This document shows positions 7,898-13,152 of a stretch of 20,178 nt of DNA, one piece after another. The stretch spans positions 1-20,178 of the IMG/VR virus record IMGVR_UViG_3300046376_000161; one strand, given 5' to 3'. Each line of letters starts with the position of its first letter. Within the stretch, counting starts at the first letter, position 1. Made by a program: the position numbers and the translations under genes. The notes under the pieces were generated by a model. The model was not told the DNA's origin and searched no databases. It saw only the letters and a list, made by a program, of their open reading frames with translations. The DNA is from a virus.

Positions 7898-8398
7898 CTA
7901 TCCCTCCCTCTGTAGCTCGTGTGGGGATCGTCCCCACGGCTCTACAGCGATCATCTGAGGCTTCGGGGGTGTAATCTCCCGCTTGAGGTCTCCGGTCGTC
8001 TCCCTGAAGCCCATCCGCCTTTTCGCCATTGCGCGGAGTTCGGGGCCTTCGGTGTCAAATAAAATCTCCCGAAAGTGGTTCTGCCTTAACATGGCCTCGA
8101 TCCAAGCCAGTCCGCGCAGCATCACATCCCGGTTTCGGTGCTTCTCGGCGGGGGTTGCGGCCTGGGCGAATAAGAGGGATAGGCGAACGGCGGTCTGGGT
8201 CTTGAAGTAGAGGACAACGGTGCCGTGTTCGTCCTCGATGGCCCACGCATCCTCTCCCGGTAGCAGGTTTATGAAGTAATCCGGGGTCATGCGGCCCTTG
8301 TGGTAGGCATCCGCCTCGATAAGAGTGTCAAGATAGGCACGGTCTTGCTCTCCCATCGGGCGAACAACGTAGTTATCGAAGCGAAAGATTTGGTTCAT
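7898..8398 (-). CDS. GNAT-fold acetyltransferase-like protein
   Basis: 166 residues from ATG 8398 (ATGA overlap with the upstream small gene). The layout fits the GNAT fold: strand 1 'YVVRPMGEQDRAYLDTLIEAD' (10-30), 'TPDYFINLLPGEDAWAIEDE' (38-57), the beta strands 'GTVVLYFKTQ' and 'AVRLSLLFA', a helix 'MLRGLAWIEAML' (93-104), and the closing 'REILFDTEG ... AKRRMGF' where the family often has 'a-x-r-x-lGF'. The usual acetyl-CoA loop (R/Q-x-x-G-x-G/A) is not intact: residues 82-96 read TPAEKHRNRDVMLRG. GNAT-like genes occur within podovirus virion blocks. It may modify a virion or host protein, or keep only the fold as a structural part. Confidence 0.66.
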   Translation of the reverse strand: MNQIFRFDNYVVRPMGEQDRAYLDTLIEADAYHKGRMTPDYFINLLPGEDAWAIEDEHGTVVLYFKTQTAVRLSLLFAQAATPAEKHRNRDVMLRGLAWIEAMLRQNHFREILFDTEGPELRAMAKRRMGFRETTGDLKREITPPKPQMIAVEPWGRSPHELQREG

Positions 8399-8649
8399 GC
8401 TCCTGCTCCTCGTTTCGCTGGCAGAATTCGGTAGGTCGGTACGTTCGTGCCTCCGTAAAACTGGCGTTGAAAAGCATCCCCGGTAGAAGCCATCAGTGGC
8501 ATAGAAGAAAGCATGTTTGGAGCGCGTCCATTAGGGTCGGCGTCCTGGGTCGGGGAGGAGGTCGGCGTGGGGGTCGGCGCGGGGGTCGGTGCGGGTACTT
8601 GCCGCATGTTCGAGAGGTCGGGATTTCTGAGCTTATTCATGGGTGGCAT
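8395..8649 (-). CDS. Small protein with Pro/Thr linker (84 aa)
   Basis: 84 residues from ATG 8649, which shares one base with the nozzle stop (TAATG), with GGAG six to seven bases upstream. An in-frame start further upstream (8760) would lie inside the nozzle gene and give a Cys/Arg-rich leader unlike a real protein. Residues 1-17 are polar (MPPMNKLRNPDLSNMRQ). About 18-35 is an Ala-Pro-Thr linker (VPAPTPAPTPTPTSSPT), and the C-terminal half ends FQRQFYGGTNVPTYRILPAK. The family is unknown. Between the nozzle and the core proteins it may be a tail-completion or plug peptide; that is inference from position. Confidence 0.65.
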   Translation of the reverse strand: MPPMNKLRNPDLSNMRQVPAPTPAPTPTPTSSPTQDADPNGRAPNMLSSMPLMASTGDAFQRQFYGGTNVPTYRILPAKRGAGA

Positions 8650-11189
8650 TACTGGCTCCTGAACTCCTGCCATAGCTGTCCGAAAATGGTGAATCCGATA
8701 AGCTCGTTGGCGGCATTTTCGGCAGGCCAATTGATGAGCATTTGGAAGTGTCTGCACCACACAGGTTTCTGCTTTTGCAGGAGTGAAAAACGGTCGCTGT
8801 AATAGCTGGTGCTGGGGGGTAAAAGTGGGGGGTCTTGACGGGTTCTTTTGACGCTTTCAAAGTGAGCAAAACCACCCAAAGGTTCAATCTCATTCATCAG
8901 TAAAAAGAGGGCTGCGGGGGTGCCTTTTGCTTCGCTGTCGAGGGTGATAAAAGCGATGGCGGCAAGCTGGCCGGGGGACGCCAAAGTGATCGACCCGAAG
9001 GTGGCAAAAGCGGGGTAGGGGGTGCCGTCGTCTTGATTGGTGGTGAGGTCGCGGAAGCGGATTCTTTGGTCTCCGGCGCTCGGCCCTAGCAGCAATCGCC
9101 ATACTCCCGGTGTGACTTCGACGCTCTGCACGGCGCTGAAGCCGTTGACGGTGATGGCGGTGGGACTCCAATTTGCTCCGGTCTCCGGCGCGGAGGTCGA
9201 TGCCATGCGGTTCCACTTCGAGACTCCATCCGAGAGATACAGCGCGTTTTCGGCGCTGGCCTCCATGTGATAGGTGAGGTAGGACGTTTTTGGGTCATAC
9301 TGCTGGATGATGTTGCTGATCTGGAATGAGGCTTCGAGGATGCCGCTGCTGGGATCGAGCGCGACAATCATGCGTGTCCCGAGATACAAATACGCGGTGG
9401 TGTGCTGCTCAGTCATGCAGTCATAACTAAGCAGCGGCAACCGGGCGATGTACTTAATCATGTAGAGCGGGTCGGCGTCGGTGGCGCTGCCAAGAATGAT
9501 GTAGCTGTCGCGCACGGTGAAGACGACGAGACCGATGGGTGTAACCCAAAAACGGGTGATCTTACTTTGCGCGGTGAAGGTGGTAGCAAATCCGGCCTGT
9601 CCGCTGCTGGTGCTGGCAATCGCATCCGGCCCGGTCGCAACATAGACCACGTTGCCTACTGCGACGAAGAGACGGCCAAGGTGATACTCGATGCAGCTTG
9701 CTCCCTGCGGCAACGGTGTACCTTCTCCGTTAACCTGCGCCTGAATGTTGACGTTCAGCGCGGAATCGGGCGCGGAATCGGTATATGTCCATTGCCCTCC
9801 CCCAATCGGCGCGGAAGAAAATTCGGTCAGATACAGGAATGTTGATCCGCCCTGCGCGGTGCGGTAGAGAATGATCGTGTCATCTGAGGGGACGGTCGGC
9901 CTGTCGCCTTGAATCGTGACTGCATTGTTGGCGATGACGCTGATGGTGAGGCTGGCCTGGGACATGTTGCCGATGTCTTTGGTGACTGAGTTCTTGTAGG
10001 CATAACCGTATTGGCGCGGTGCGGTCGCGGCTGAGGCGAAGTCTTTGGTGGTGTTCCATAGCACGCTTCCGTCGACGGTCAGCGCACCAATGCCGTCGTT
10101 GAAGCTCGGCGGCGCGTTTCCGGTCACGCCTGACTGTGCAACCGATTGAACGAAGCCTCCGGGGTCGAGAATTTCGTAGGTTTCGGATGTGCTTGTGCCT
10201 GATCTGCCGGGAATGCAGGGGGTATTCGCTCCGATGTCGGCCCATTGGTGTTGCACTCCTACGTTGATCCAGACGGCGGAACCGTCGACAATGAGGCTCC
10301 CTAGCCCCGATGTCCACGCTGGCGCGGATGCTGCGGTCGTTCCCGGCGTAAAGATGGTGAAGACCATCGCTTGAATGCCGGAGGGTACTGATACGTTTGC
10401 GCTGATGGTTTGCTCTAAGACGTATGCATGATTCGCTATCCAATTGGCCGAACCGTCATTAATCCATGCCGTTGTACCGTCCGGGGTGGCGCTGAATGGC
10501 GCGGGGTTGAACACTGGCAACGTGGCCCCGGTGGTGCCGCCCACAGAGATGTGAAACATGCAAGTTGTAATCGGGTCGTATATCAGAATCAGTCCACCCC
10601 ACCATGATCCGAAGGCGGTTCCTGGTCGCCATACGGGATAAGGGTTGGGGATCGGGGCCTGACTCACGATGGGCGCGTCGAGTGGCGTGTCTACTCCCCA
10701 CGGATAAGTCGTGTTGGTGTCGTTGTCGTATATCCGGTTGTCGATGCCGTTGGTGAAGTAGAGAAGATTGCCGATGCTCGAAAAGTAGGTGCGTCCCGCT
10801 CCCGGCGATTTCAGCCAGATTTCTAAATTGTTATTCGGCGTGACATCCAACACTTGGATCGCGGTATCGGCAAGAACTTTGATAGCTTCGCTGGTCAGCG
10901 TGAAGGTGTTGAAGGCGTAGTAACTGATGATGGGATTAAGCGGCTGGCCGTTGAAGACGGTATTGCCGGGTCTGCGGATGAGGGTGAGGCGGGTGCTGAT
11001 TTCGGTGTTTTGTCCATCCCAGATGGAATCCTGTCTTCCATAGCCATACTTCTCCCCTGCGGCGCTGACTGCACCATCCCGCAACGCGCTCCGGTTGGTG
11101 TAATACCCGGTGAAGATGCGGTTGGTGTGAAGCGGTGCGAAGGCGCTTGGCTCCGTCGAGGCTCCGGCGTTTTGTAGTGAACTGGTCAT
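8649..11189 (-). CDS. Tail nozzle / tail tubular B-like protein (846 aa)
   Basis: 846 residues from ATG 11189 (ATGA overlap). The N-terminus (about 23-80: 'NRIFTGYYTNRSALRDG', 'DSIWDGQNTEIS', 'LTLIRRPGNTVFN') and the many repeated beta strands at 135-155 and 500-660 ('GRLFVAVGNVVYVATG', 'YLYLGTRMIVALDPSSG', 'ALYLSDGVSKWNRM') suggest the beta-propeller nozzle proteins at the end of podovirus tails. Between about 215 and 380 there are three modules sharing a G-x-x-x-x-(V/T)-DGS-x-x-W type motif (ending at W250, W307 and W378). The final 150 residues are again beta rich. It follows the adaptor-like pair, the usual order (tubular A then B). Expected role: close the tail tip and contact fibres and host surface. 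Assignment rests on order, size and fold pattern. Confidence 0.68.
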   Translation of the reverse strand: MTSSLQNAGASTEPSAFAPLHTNRIFTGYYTNRSALRDGAVSAAGEKYGYGRQDSIWDGQNTEISTRLTLIRRPGNTVFNGQPLNPIISYYAFNTFTLTSEAIKVLADTAIQVLDVTPNNNLEIWLKSPGAGRTYFSSIGNLLYFTNGIDNRIYDNDTNTTYPWGVDTPLDAPIVSQAPIPNPYPVWRPGTAFGSWWGGLILIYDPITTCMFHISVGGTTGATLPVFNPAPFSATPDGTTAWINDGSANWIANHAYVLEQTISANVSVPSGIQAMVFTIFTPGTTAASAPAWTSGLGSLIVDGSAVWINVGVQHQWADIGANTPCIPGRSGTSTSETYEILDPGGFVQSVAQSGVTGNAPPSFNDGIGALTVDGSVLWNTTKDFASAATAPRQYGYAYKNSVTKDIGNMSQASLTISVIANNAVTIQGDRPTVPSDDTIILYRTAQGGSTFLYLTEFSSAPIGGGQWTYTDSAPDSALNVNIQAQVNGEGTPLPQGASCIEYHLGRLFVAVGNVVYVATGPDAIASTSSGQAGFATTFTAQSKITRFWVTPIGLVVFTVRDSYIILGSATDADPLYMIKYIARLPLLSYDCMTEQHTTAYLYLGTRMIVALDPSSGILEASFQISNIIQQYDPKTSYLTYHMEASAENALYLSDGVSKWNRMASTSAPETGANWSPTAITVNGFSAVQSVEVTPGVWRLLLGPSAGDQRIRFRDLTTNQDDGTPYPAFATFGSITLASPGQLAAIAFITLDSEAKGTPAALFLLMNEIEPLGGFAHFESVKRTRQDPPLLPPSTSYYSDRFSLLQKQKPVWCRHFQMLINWPAENAANELIGFTIFGQLWQEFRSQ
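10056..10562 (-). repeat. Three DGS-x-W protein modules inside the nozzle
   Basis: Residues about 210-378 of the nozzle hold three divergent repeats. Common pattern: hydrophobic strand, G-T-T/TG, Ala/Pro, a P-x-(W/F) or similar, Gly, then DG(S/T)-x-x-W. Examples are TTAASAPAWTSG ... IVDGSAVW and GVTGNAPPSFND ... TVDGSVLW. The first copy ends WINDGSANW. They look like small surface beta domains, inserted into the propeller body. Confidence 0.7.
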
Positions 11190-11890
11190 TGCTGTTTGGC
11201 CTGAACTCCCTGCTGGGTTTCGAGCGTGTTGCGTTGCGTTTCATTCATCAGGGTTAGAAAATTTCCGAGATAGATGTTGCGTTCGAGCGCGGTGAGACCG
11301 GACTGTTGCCCAAGTAGGTGCGCGGTGAACTTGGTCATAAAAAAGTTCGAGCGAGCATCCTTGGTTAACATCGAAAGCATCCCCAGAAAGCCCCAATCGA
11401 AGATGTAAGACAGGTGATCGGGGATGGGACTCCACAGACACGCGAGCGAATCCATCGTGACGGCGGCTCTCTGATAGAACGCTTCAACCTCATAGGTCTG
11501 ATCGGGGATCGCATTCAGCCGAAAGATGACATTGCCATCGGTGTCGGACTGCTGGGCGCTGATACTCTGCGGTCGCTGCTTCGATGACTCGGCGGCGAGT
11601 GACTTGACGATCTTGATTTCCTTTACTTTGTCCTGGCCATCCGTGAGCCAAGCCTGTTCTAAGAAGCCGTAATCCGGTAACACAACCTCGTAGTCCTGGG
11701 CCTCGGGCGTGACGCCGAAACTCACCACGCTACGGTTCCATATCCATTTGAAGGGGGGGCCAAGAATCTCCTGCTTGACGAGATTGGCCGCGTCTATGGC
11801 TGGCTGACCATAGGAGATGTCCGCTGGCTGGTAGCCGATGAAGGGCAGCGTGAACAAGATGCTCGATTGCAGATTGCGTGTGTAGCTCAT
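11186..11890 (-). CDS. Second adaptor (tail tubular A-like) protein, 234 aa
   Basis: 234 residues from ATG 11890, overlapping the previous stop as ATGA, with GGGGGTGG just upstream. A GTG two codons earlier (11896) is an alternative. It shares features with the 333-aa protein before it: 'PPFKWIWNRSVVSFGV' then 'AQDYEVVLPDYGFLEQAWL' (residues 45-82), and 'WSPIPDHLSYIFDWGFLGML' (153-172), facing 'FPWKWNSIKLKPFVL', 'QQDYATVNLRKLGWLTAGL' and 'LNPIPDDYIKWFRDGFVAY'. It lacks the about 90-residue middle region of its neighbour. The C-terminus is helical and Gln-rich. Adaptor proteins form a ring joining portal to nozzle; this copy is the shorter form and sits next to the nozzle gene. It is probably a true structural paralogue, not a fragment, because both ends are intact. 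Confidence 0.66.
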   Translation of the reverse strand: MSYTRNLQSSILFTLPFIGYQPADISYGQPAIDAANLVKQEILGPPFKWIWNRSVVSFGVTPEAQDYEVVLPDYGFLEQAWLTDGQDKVKEIKIVKSLAAESSKQRPQSISAQQSDTDGNVIFRLNAIPDQTYEVEAFYQRAAVTMDSLACLWSPIPDHLSYIFDWGFLGMLSMLTKDARSNFFMTKFTAHLLGQQSGLTALERNIYLGNFLTLMNETQRNTLETQQGVQAKQQ

Positions 11891-12888
11891 ATCCACCCCC
11901 AGCGGTAGGGATAGGGGCCTTGGTCTTGTATGTAGCTGGTCGCGGCGAGTGACTGATCGGGATAGAAGCCGTAATGCTCGTCTTCGCGGTCGGCCTCTTT
12001 ACAGGCTGAGGCGAGTGCCACAAGCCAGTCGGTTTTCATCGGCTCGAATCTGGCCTTGACGCTGGGCGTCGAAGAGTAGCGATGCGAGTAGGCAACGAAG
12101 CCATCGCGGAACCACTTGATGTAGTCATCGGGGATGGGATTCAGAAGGTCTTGCATCTCGACGATTTGGGGCGCTTTCAACTGGCCCCACAAGCGCATCA
12201 GCCAAACGATTCCTCCTCTGGGTGTGCGCGGGAAGATGCGGAACCCCTGCCCGTAGGGATCGGCAACCGTCCACTGACACGAACCATCGTTGATAACCTG
12301 CCCGGTCAAATCCGCATCCGGGTTGGCGGGGTCGATCACGGCGGCGGGTGGGACAAGTCCGGTGGTGCCGTACTTGGTGAGGATGAGGATGTTGCCGTAG
12401 ATGTCGAGGATGTTGGTGACGGGGTTGATTACGGGCGTCGTGGCTCCGATGGGTTCGGTGTAGGTGACTCCCGGCCCCGGCCAAATCCCTTGCTCCATCT
12501 GATCGTTCTGAAGCCAGCACACCTGTCCCGGCCATCCGGCCATCGTGTTATCCATCGGCAAGTCGCGGACGACGATGACGGGCCATGAAGGGGGCGGAAC
12601 CTGACTATTGTTGATGTCTACCCTGAGTCCTGCGGTCAGCCATCCCAGCTTTCGCAGGTTCACGGTCGCATAGTCCTGCTGGGTGGGAAACAGAACGAAC
12701 GGCTTAAGTTTGATGGAGTTCCATTTCCAAGGGAAGCGCGTGCTGATGAACTCGCTCATCACATCGTTGGCGATGGTGACGGCGGGTTCTTTGGCCCAAC
12801 CTCCGGTATTCGTGAGTACCGGGTTGAGGTCGCCAATGGTGGCAACCTCATCCACGATATTTTGTAACGTCTTCGTGCTGTTACCCAC
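11887..12888 (-). CDS. Adaptor (tail tubular A-like) protein, 333 aa
   Basis: 333 residues from GTG 12888, with GAGG about six bases upstream. The first 45 residues are helical (TKTLQNIVDEVATIG ... AVTIANDVMSEFIST), followed by the 'RFPWKWNSIKLKPFVLFP' and 'QQDYATVNLRKLGWL' beta region, and the 'LNPIPDDYIKWFRDGFVAYSH' helix near 249-270. That helix-beta-helix layout and the position between capsid and nozzle genes suggest the portal-bound head-tail adaptor of podoviruses. The middle (about 160-216) is an extra module ending TGQVINDGSCQW, the same motif repeated in the nozzle. The C-terminus is aromatic (PYPYRWGWI). The next gene is a shorter relative. Function is inferred from order and similarity of layout; no direct match was run. 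Confidence 0.66.
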   Translation of the reverse strand: MGNSTKTLQNIVDEVATIGDLNPVLTNTGGWAKEPAVTIANDVMSEFISTRFPWKWNSIKLKPFVLFPTQQDYATVNLRKLGWLTAGLRVDINNSQVPPPSWPVIVVRDLPMDNTMAGWPGQVCWLQNDQMEQGIWPGPGVTYTEPIGATTPVINPVTNILDIYGNILILTKYGTTGLVPPAAVIDPANPDADLTGQVINDGSCQWTVADPYGQGFRIFPRTPRGGIVWLMRLWGQLKAPQIVEMQDLLNPIPDDYIKWFRDGFVAYSHRYSSTPSVKARFEPMKTDWLVALASACKEADREDEHYGFYPDQSLAATSYIQDQGPYPYRWGWI

Positions 12889-12900
12889 GGCACACCTCGA

Positions 12901-13152
12901 CTACTTCTGTGCGTTTTGTGCGTCGATTTCCGCTTGCTGCGCGGGGGTGGGGCTGATGGTGGAGAATGCCGGATCGTTGTAGCTGCGGCCTCGGGTGGCG
13001 ACGGCTTCCTCTCCGGTTCCGGCTCCGCGCTGTTCGGCGGCGAGTGGAGCGGCGGCGGCGGGTATATCGGCGGCGGCGAGTGAAGCGTTGGGGTCGGGTG
13101 GAGCGTCGGCGGTGGTGCCTCCGGCTGCGGTGGTGTCATCGGGTGTAGTCAT
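12901..13152 (-). CDS. Ala/Pro-rich small virion-block protein (83 aa)
   Basis: 83 residues from ATG 13152, chosen because GAGGAGA lies six bases upstream. An in-frame ATG at 13209 would add 19 basic residues but has no good ribosome site. The protein is a low-complexity acidic Ala/Thr/Pro chain (MTTPDDTTAAGGTTADAPP, then SLAAADIPAAAAPLAAEQ), ending in a more regular tail (SYNDPAFSTISPTPAQQAE). No domain is recognised. Such Ala/Pro-rich chains between capsid and connector genes could be capsid decorations, linkers or assembly aids. It begins the run that leads to the adaptor genes. Confidence 0.6.
   Translation of the reverse strand: MTTPDDTTAAGGTTADAPPDPNASLAAADIPAAAAPLAAEQRGAGTGEEAVATRGRSYNDPAFSTISPTPAQQAEIDAQNAQK

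Follow-up and report, generated by a model that had tools for sequence, protein, structure and literature searches.

Accessory domains in virion proteins are of a known kind. In phage SU10, as set out in the part of its structural description that is cited here (PMC9509320), the tail nozzle carries four added domains, and a domain of the adaptor, to which we return below, holds the long tail fibres. A described isolate closer to the subject of this paper is Tunturi_3, presented in the portion of its report used here as a podovirus from Finnish tundra soil (PMC11924767). Here we describe a small module that occurs three times in the tail nozzle protein and once in the long head-tail adaptor of an uncultivated virus, record IMGVR_UViG_3300046376_000161; the whole 20,178-bp stretch analysed is called the window. 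The novelty of this module is that it has no counterpart among the curated models of Pfam and NCBIfam and that it sits in connector and tail rings and not only in fibres. An earlier note, made from the letters of the window, had pointed to a motif shared by these proteins and suggested a mobile surface domain copied between neighbouring tail genes.

Four copies of one module in the nozzle and the long adaptor

The module is about 55 residues long and, in the predicted structures, consists of two beta-hairpins, with a first turn of the form D-x-N-G-N, a joint GTTG-x-x-x-P-x-W, a second turn DG and an invariant final Trp. Its carriers in the window are the nozzle (846 residues, 8649..11189), with three tandem copies, and the long adaptor (333 residues, 11887..12888), with one. 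The short adaptor (236 residues, 11186..11896), which aligns with the long adaptor as its paralogue, is module-free in this phage. All of these genes, and hence the module coordinates below, are on the minus strand.

The pattern DG[ST]xxW has four occurrences in the nozzle (residues 237, 245, 302 and 373), one in the long adaptor (residue 201) and none in the short adaptor or elsewhere in a six-frame translation of the window. The nozzle has three matches to the fuller composite motif (G-T/V-T-G/A, then P, then DG-S/T-x-x-W), and the long adaptor has one. When the nozzle was shuffled 20,000 times, the mean number of DG[ST]xxW patterns was 0.017 and three were never seen, and 0.96% of 20,000 adaptor shuffles contained one. 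These counts and shuffles bear out what the earlier note had said of the motif's occurrence.

Scored with a profile built from relatives only, module N1 (10455..10631, nozzle residues 187-245) reaches 17.7 bits, N2 (10260..10442, residues 250-310) 33.6 bits, N3 (10047..10244, residues 316-381) 35.3 bits and the adaptor module A (12262..12438, long adaptor residues 151-209) 39.8 bits. This profile was made from 14 relatives' modules, and the best of 900 shuffled proteins scored 7.0 bits against it. Likewise, N1, N2 and N3 score 11.2-16.5 bits with a profile of relatives' adaptor modules, against which shuffles stay at or below 7.5. The four copies are one homologous family, and the check proposed in the earlier note, that a profile of some copies should recover the others, succeeds once relatives are included.

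The AlphaFold2 models of the whole adaptor and nozzle give all four copies two pairs of strands in a common order: residues 202-205, 210-216, 234-237 and 240-247 in N1; 261-268, 271-281, 299-302 and 305-312 in N2; 339-341, 346-352, 370-373 and 376-383 in N3; and 159-161, 167-172, 198-201 and 204-209 in A. The block of module A is predicted with a local confidence (pLDDT) of about 92-98. Thus, the expectation that the modules fold alike agrees with the predicted strand order. The boundaries proposed earlier need some correction. The three nozzle copies stand, but the conserved turn and Trp of N1 are DGTTAW (residues 237-242) and not the DGSANW at 245. The latter lies in the linker between N1 and N2; alignment with relatives makes W250 the first Trp of N2, and a related phage (L003) has NNGSANW at the linker position. 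Similarly, module A had been equated with exactly the part that the short adaptor lacks; it makes up most of the excess, but about 33 further residues upstream are also absent.

The carrier proteins

The identity of the carriers rests on fold comparisons of predicted models, and the VIA results given here speak for the families in its tables, with others not excluded by them. The adaptor model (pLDDT 86.9, 67 sequences) has the helix bundle and dock fold of T7 gp11/SU10-like adaptors, with VIA Z scores of 12.1 to the A4 adaptor (9k09_d; 208 residues aligned, root-mean-square deviation 4.6), 11.2 to Pa223 and 10.4 to SU10 (7z47_A). The nozzle model (pLDDT 85.4, predicted template-modelling score 0.67, 42 sequences) has the platform and beta-propeller fold of T7 gp12/SU10-like nozzles. 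Foldseek and VIA match it to the nozzles of A4, SU10, T7, P22 and Pa223, with VIA Z scores of 25.1 to Pa223 (443 aligned, root-mean-square deviation 3.1), 22.5 to P22 gp10 and 22.0 to SU10, and a Foldseek E value of 2.1e-13 to A4. A sequence search of the PDB gave no significant match for the nozzle or the modules, and the matches that it gave for the adaptor were judged to be chance. The short adaptor scores 21.6 bits (E 3.4e-4) against Pfam SU10_adaptor (PF24175), under the cut-off of 27.

P22 gp10 and the Pa223 nozzle have 471 and 512 residues, and the 423-443 that align span residues of about 16-843 of the 846-residue model. Since these shorter nozzles span nearly the whole model, much of the window nozzle is extra. 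Judged by sequence, the module block at residues 187-381 is a natural candidate for this extra part, although the aligner reports end points only.

Distribution among related phages

Loci L007-L126 were fetched by scans with adaptor and nozzle alignments, using patterns that lie outside the module. In all, 126 loci supplied 93 long adaptors, 89 short adaptors and 93 nozzles as unique sequences; some loci share a contig, and some proteins are cut by a contig end. Containment filtering leaves 93, 88 and 91, respectively, and takes the short adaptors with a module from 14 to 13. By iterated profile search, 92 of the 93 long adaptors carry the module, in one copy each, as do 84 of the 93 nozzles, mostly in three copies; the remaining long adaptor has, by eye, a degenerate copy. 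Among the short adaptors, 14 of 89 carry a module, all at one site after the QQDY strand, unlike the long-adaptor site, and it is in Tunturi_3-like phages that the short adaptor has its own copy. The same search found no module in 4388 other open reading frames (ORFs) of at least 100 residues, a set drawn from the fetched flanks and including spurious frames, and none in reversed ORFs.

The adaptor copies keep the turns of the module (D19 in 98%, G22 in 95%, P38 in 100%, D50 in 98% and W55 in 98%), but 86% of them lack the first Trp and 28% have Trp40. Of the nozzle copies, 69% have Trp1 and 91% an aromatic residue at position 40 (Trp in 72%, Phe in 19%).

The isolated relative, Tunturiibacter phage Tunturi_3, whose isolation host was Tunturiibacter psychrotolerans X5P2, has both proteins, with 37% and 32% identity, and a contig from an Acidobacteria metagenome-assembled genome (L127), which may be a mis-binned phage, is a further one. 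Because of these two relatives, the window phage probably has an Acidobacteriota host. Among nozzles of at least 765 residues, 4 of 82 are module-free, namely the near-identical L004 and L005, L086, and L119, truncated at a contig end. The nozzle of L004/L005 (3700-7674) is 1324 residues long, and several hundred extra residues in it resemble immunoglobulin (Ig)-like repeats and a glycoside-hydrolase-like part, with no Pfam match. Gaps of more than 80 residues separate modules in 14 of the 82 long nozzles. In the Tunturi_3 nozzle (L006 18182-21592), a large insert between modules weakly resembles PA14 at residues of about 415-456 (E 0.053, under the cut-off).

Occurrence in bacterial genomes and other phages

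With 24 modules as queries, at least 16 of 396 Acidobacteriota genomes contain a match with E no higher than 1e-5; these genome counts are lower bounds, with at most 16-21 candidates scored per genome, and carriers were classed by ORF reading, Pfam and PHROGs. Five of these genomes have phage-like carriers: rings and a beta-helix tailspike in G001, head-tail adaptors (phrog_442) in G016 and G153, a DUF2460 tail protein in G395, and in G276 a small protein whose connector position is assigned by gene order only and which has no relatives in the viral contigs searched. Four have the module in the flagellar hook protein FlgE (G156, G218, G234 and G330), as assigned by a Pfam scan for three and, for G330, by the module and an ORF length matching that of L185; in G156 and G218 the gene sits in an operon that reads, by eye, from FliG to FlhA. 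Two genomes (G030 and G043) carry it in prepilin clusters, with PilW-like and weak PilX-like carriers in G043. The other five (G074, G085, G184, G279 and G287) have other secreted or extracellular carriers, which include a beta-helix protein, and a subtilase also carries the module.

Beyond this phylum's genomes, the baseplate hub proteins of Caulobacter phage CcrSwift and Brevundimonas phage Kikimora contain the module. A tblastn search with a pilin-type module hit phages of Caulobacter and Brevundimonas (E 5e-3 to 9e-3), and a profile confirmed two of them. The canonical Tunturi_3 module, searched against phages by tblastn, found only itself, and the low-complexity filter probably masks it.

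A profile built from 10 host modules alone provides independent support, in that it detects 240 domains in 78 of the 93 nozzles as well as modules in 41 of the 93 long and 14 of the 89 short adaptors, with none in the 4388 other ORFs or in reversed ORFs. The module has the look of a surface building block that is shared and reused by phage tail parts, flagellar hooks and pilins.

Proposed roles and alternative explanations

The explanation that we consider best as a whole, and to which we would give about an even chance, is that the module is a small accessory domain with two roles, the adaptor copy being a fixed structural part and the nozzle copies being exposed and weakly binding. In the predicted model, module A lies within the beta part (residues 58-237) of the SU10-like adaptor, which corresponds to the fibre-holding domain of SU10. 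The single adaptor copy, without its outer aromatic residues, may by now have become a permanent piece of the structure at the fibre-docking region of the adaptor ring; we read it as structural because it is near-universal in long adaptors and has been stripped of those aromatics. The nozzle copies, mostly three, may be outward-facing, low-affinity binding domains, most likely for glycans of the host surface or the soil, that would help to hold the short tail on the cell. This is suggested because they keep the aromatics, can be missing and adjoin other inserts. Hexameric and dodecameric rings would multiply such a weak contact. Sugar binding by the module is plausible. The surface setting of the module in other carriers (tailspike, FlgE, prepilins and a secreted beta-helix protein) and the weak carbohydrate-binding-module resemblance described below also speak for this explanation.

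Several results weigh against this explanation. A profile of relatives' nozzle modules places N1 at noise (7.5 bits) and gives the adaptor copy 5.6 bits, with shuffles up to 7.2, and a profile of the three window nozzle copies alone fails on the adaptor copy (1.4 bits). The copies in the window therefore lie far apart, and the link between adaptor and nozzle rests on the relatives and the independent host modules, not on the window. The complete module-free nozzles of L004, L005 and L086 show that a nozzle can do without the module. The guess of sugar binding has little beneath it, since the best score against the carbohydrate-binding module family 5/12 (CBM5/12, PF02839) for which bits are shown is 24.6, under the Pfam cut-off of 26.2, and hhalign against 48 aligned Acidobacteriota CBM5/12 domains returns probabilities of 0.24-0.69%. 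In addition, the hairpin probably buries the invariant Trp, which would then not be a binding residue.

The main rival, to which we assign a somewhat lower but still substantial likelihood, is that the modules serve structure only: as spacers or staples they would pack one ring on the next, or dock fibres and spikes, and would bind nothing outside the virion. The near-universal single adaptor copy, its vertical descent and the conserved turn residues would all be expected of such a part, and nozzle domains and adaptor dock loops of SU10 touch fibres and neighbouring subunits in the part of its description cited (PMC9509320). However, hooks, prepilins, the subtilase and the secreted proteins with the module have no common structural partner, and module-free nozzles exist.

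It is also possible, though unlikely, that the module is a divergent CBM5/12 with an added DG hairpin. PF02839 matches 3 of 24 modules (best E 1.2e-5), on the half that reads W...Y...G..V...G..Y. Against this stand the score under the curated cut-off, the hhalign probabilities given above and the absence, from most adaptor copies, of that half's first Trp.

The module is common to phage rings and to the flagellar hooks and prepilins of possible hosts. Phages of Acidobacteriota have barely been studied, and the module offers a candidate means by which those in soil hold on to their hosts. A broader proposal, which we regard as rather doubtful, is that Acidobacteriota and their phages use this one module throughout their extracellular machines, the phage having taken it from host appendages or mimicking them. 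Hook and minor pilins on one side and adaptor, nozzle and spike on the other would face the same polysaccharide coat, and the module would occur on both because both would have to stick to that coat or slide through it.

Descent of the module copies

The module was taken in the earlier note to have been copied between neighbouring tail genes. Of this, a recurring insert of a single family stands; the copying is not supported. The nearest neighbour of every adaptor module (92 of 92) is the adaptor module of another locus, and that of 252 of 257 nozzle modules is another nozzle module. In the larger orientation set, the identity of adaptor and nozzle modules is 0.285 when both come from one locus (n=240) and 0.280 when they come from different loci (n=22821); in the other set it is 0.265 (n=3) and 0.280 (n=524). 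Comparisons of short adaptor and nozzle modules have a slight within-locus excess, with 0.362 (n=20) against 0.343 (n=3463) in the larger set and 0.397 (n=3) against 0.334 (n=108) in the other. On a tree of 115 of the 227 eligible labelled modules, the five site labels need 14 changes (shuffles at least 61) and the three gene labels need 4 (shuffles at least 31). These patterns indicate gene-wise inheritance after old insertions, with each site filled long ago and its module then passed on with the gene.

Copying from nozzle to adaptor, or back, inside this phage lineage is thus improbable. It would account for one family in neighbouring genes and for a 33-nt DNA repeat, 79% identical, between 10502-10534 and 12420-12452. 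However, this repeat, the only notable pair between copies, is out of register by eye, in that it pairs the GTTG of N1 with the linker ahead of the adaptor module, and we rejected DNA-level repeats as a sign of copying. Where copying would be recent, it is contradicted by the clustering by gene and the unraised within-locus identity, and we ruled it out; an ancient copy is conceivable. Chance or compositional similarity in Gly/Thr-rich loops could be suspected from short T/G-rich segments and the weakness of N1 and A by some profiles, but it is contradicted by the shuffle, reversed-sequence and independent host-profile controls and can safely be set aside.

Neighbouring genes in the window

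By PHROG matches, terminase-like, portal and major capsid genes are present on the minus strand. The capsid gene is followed by the genes for the long adaptor, the short adaptor and the nozzle, with overlaps of 10 bases (long/short) and 4 bases (short/nozzle). The small ORF between the major capsid and long adaptor genes contains GC-rich 18-nt tandem repeat units at 13035-13124. An acetyltransferase-like gene (7898-8398) comes after the nozzle; L002, L003 and L127 have similar ORFs there, and in Tunturi_3 the third gene past the nozzle is annotated as an acetyltransferase. At 171-1159, two overlapping minus-strand ORFs (GGHAFAWPPNFANA and GGNSFAWPTRCHNA) look like paralogues and are possibly tail-fibre-type proteins.

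Comparison with known systems

In the titles and abstract openings of open-licence papers, we found no account of the module. A family that does cover it is phrog_20658 ('head decoration'), which matches the window nozzle at residues 209-321 (E 3.8e-6) and 6 of 16 module sequences (best 3.4e-7), as well as phage, prophage and CcrSwift proteins; it had no match in 14 control genomes. Its name implies capsid decoration, whereas the carriers here are adaptor rings, nozzles, hubs and spikes, and the folds of the two window carriers are those of a nozzle and an adaptor. The Tunturi_3 protein gp19 (XOB77200.1, L006 18182-21592), annotated as a head decoration protein, is the orthologue of the window nozzle and probably owes its name to inserted modules that match phrog_20658. 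A profile of the module would correct annotations of this kind.

The first half of the module is like CBM5/12 in the spacing of Trp, Tyr, Gly, Val, Gly and Tyr, but the module differs in its additional GTTG-P-W-DG-W half. As a separate observation, Acidobacteriota collagen-like (GPAGP) proteins (L155, L156, L160, L163 and L168) have CBM5/12-type domains among their collagen repeats. Conversely, it is the second half that is resembled by residues 511-543 of the tailspike gp17 of cyanophage Pam1 (PDB 7eea), at 14.0 bits for that stretch; the whole-sequence E value of 1.5 is not significant, and the first half is unmatched. The Pam1 tailspike domain has been proposed to bind host polysaccharide, according to the part of the report cited (PMC9382816).

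The BACON and Ig-like domains of crAss-like phages are likewise accessory in tail proteins, and BACON is homologous to host proteins; in the part of the source cited (PMC10136315), BACON is described in tail spikes, not in adaptor rings. No Pfam Ig or BACON match is listed for the 24 modules, and as far as Pfam matching goes BACON and the module are different sequence families. A further likeness is to nozzles and adaptors of the SU10/T7 type, whose folds the carriers share (Z scores to SU10 of 22.0 and 10.4). The SU10 nozzle also has added domains, but as far as the cited part of its description goes these are Ig-like, whereas those of the window nozzle are copies of a short two-hairpin module, one of which is also present in the long adaptor.

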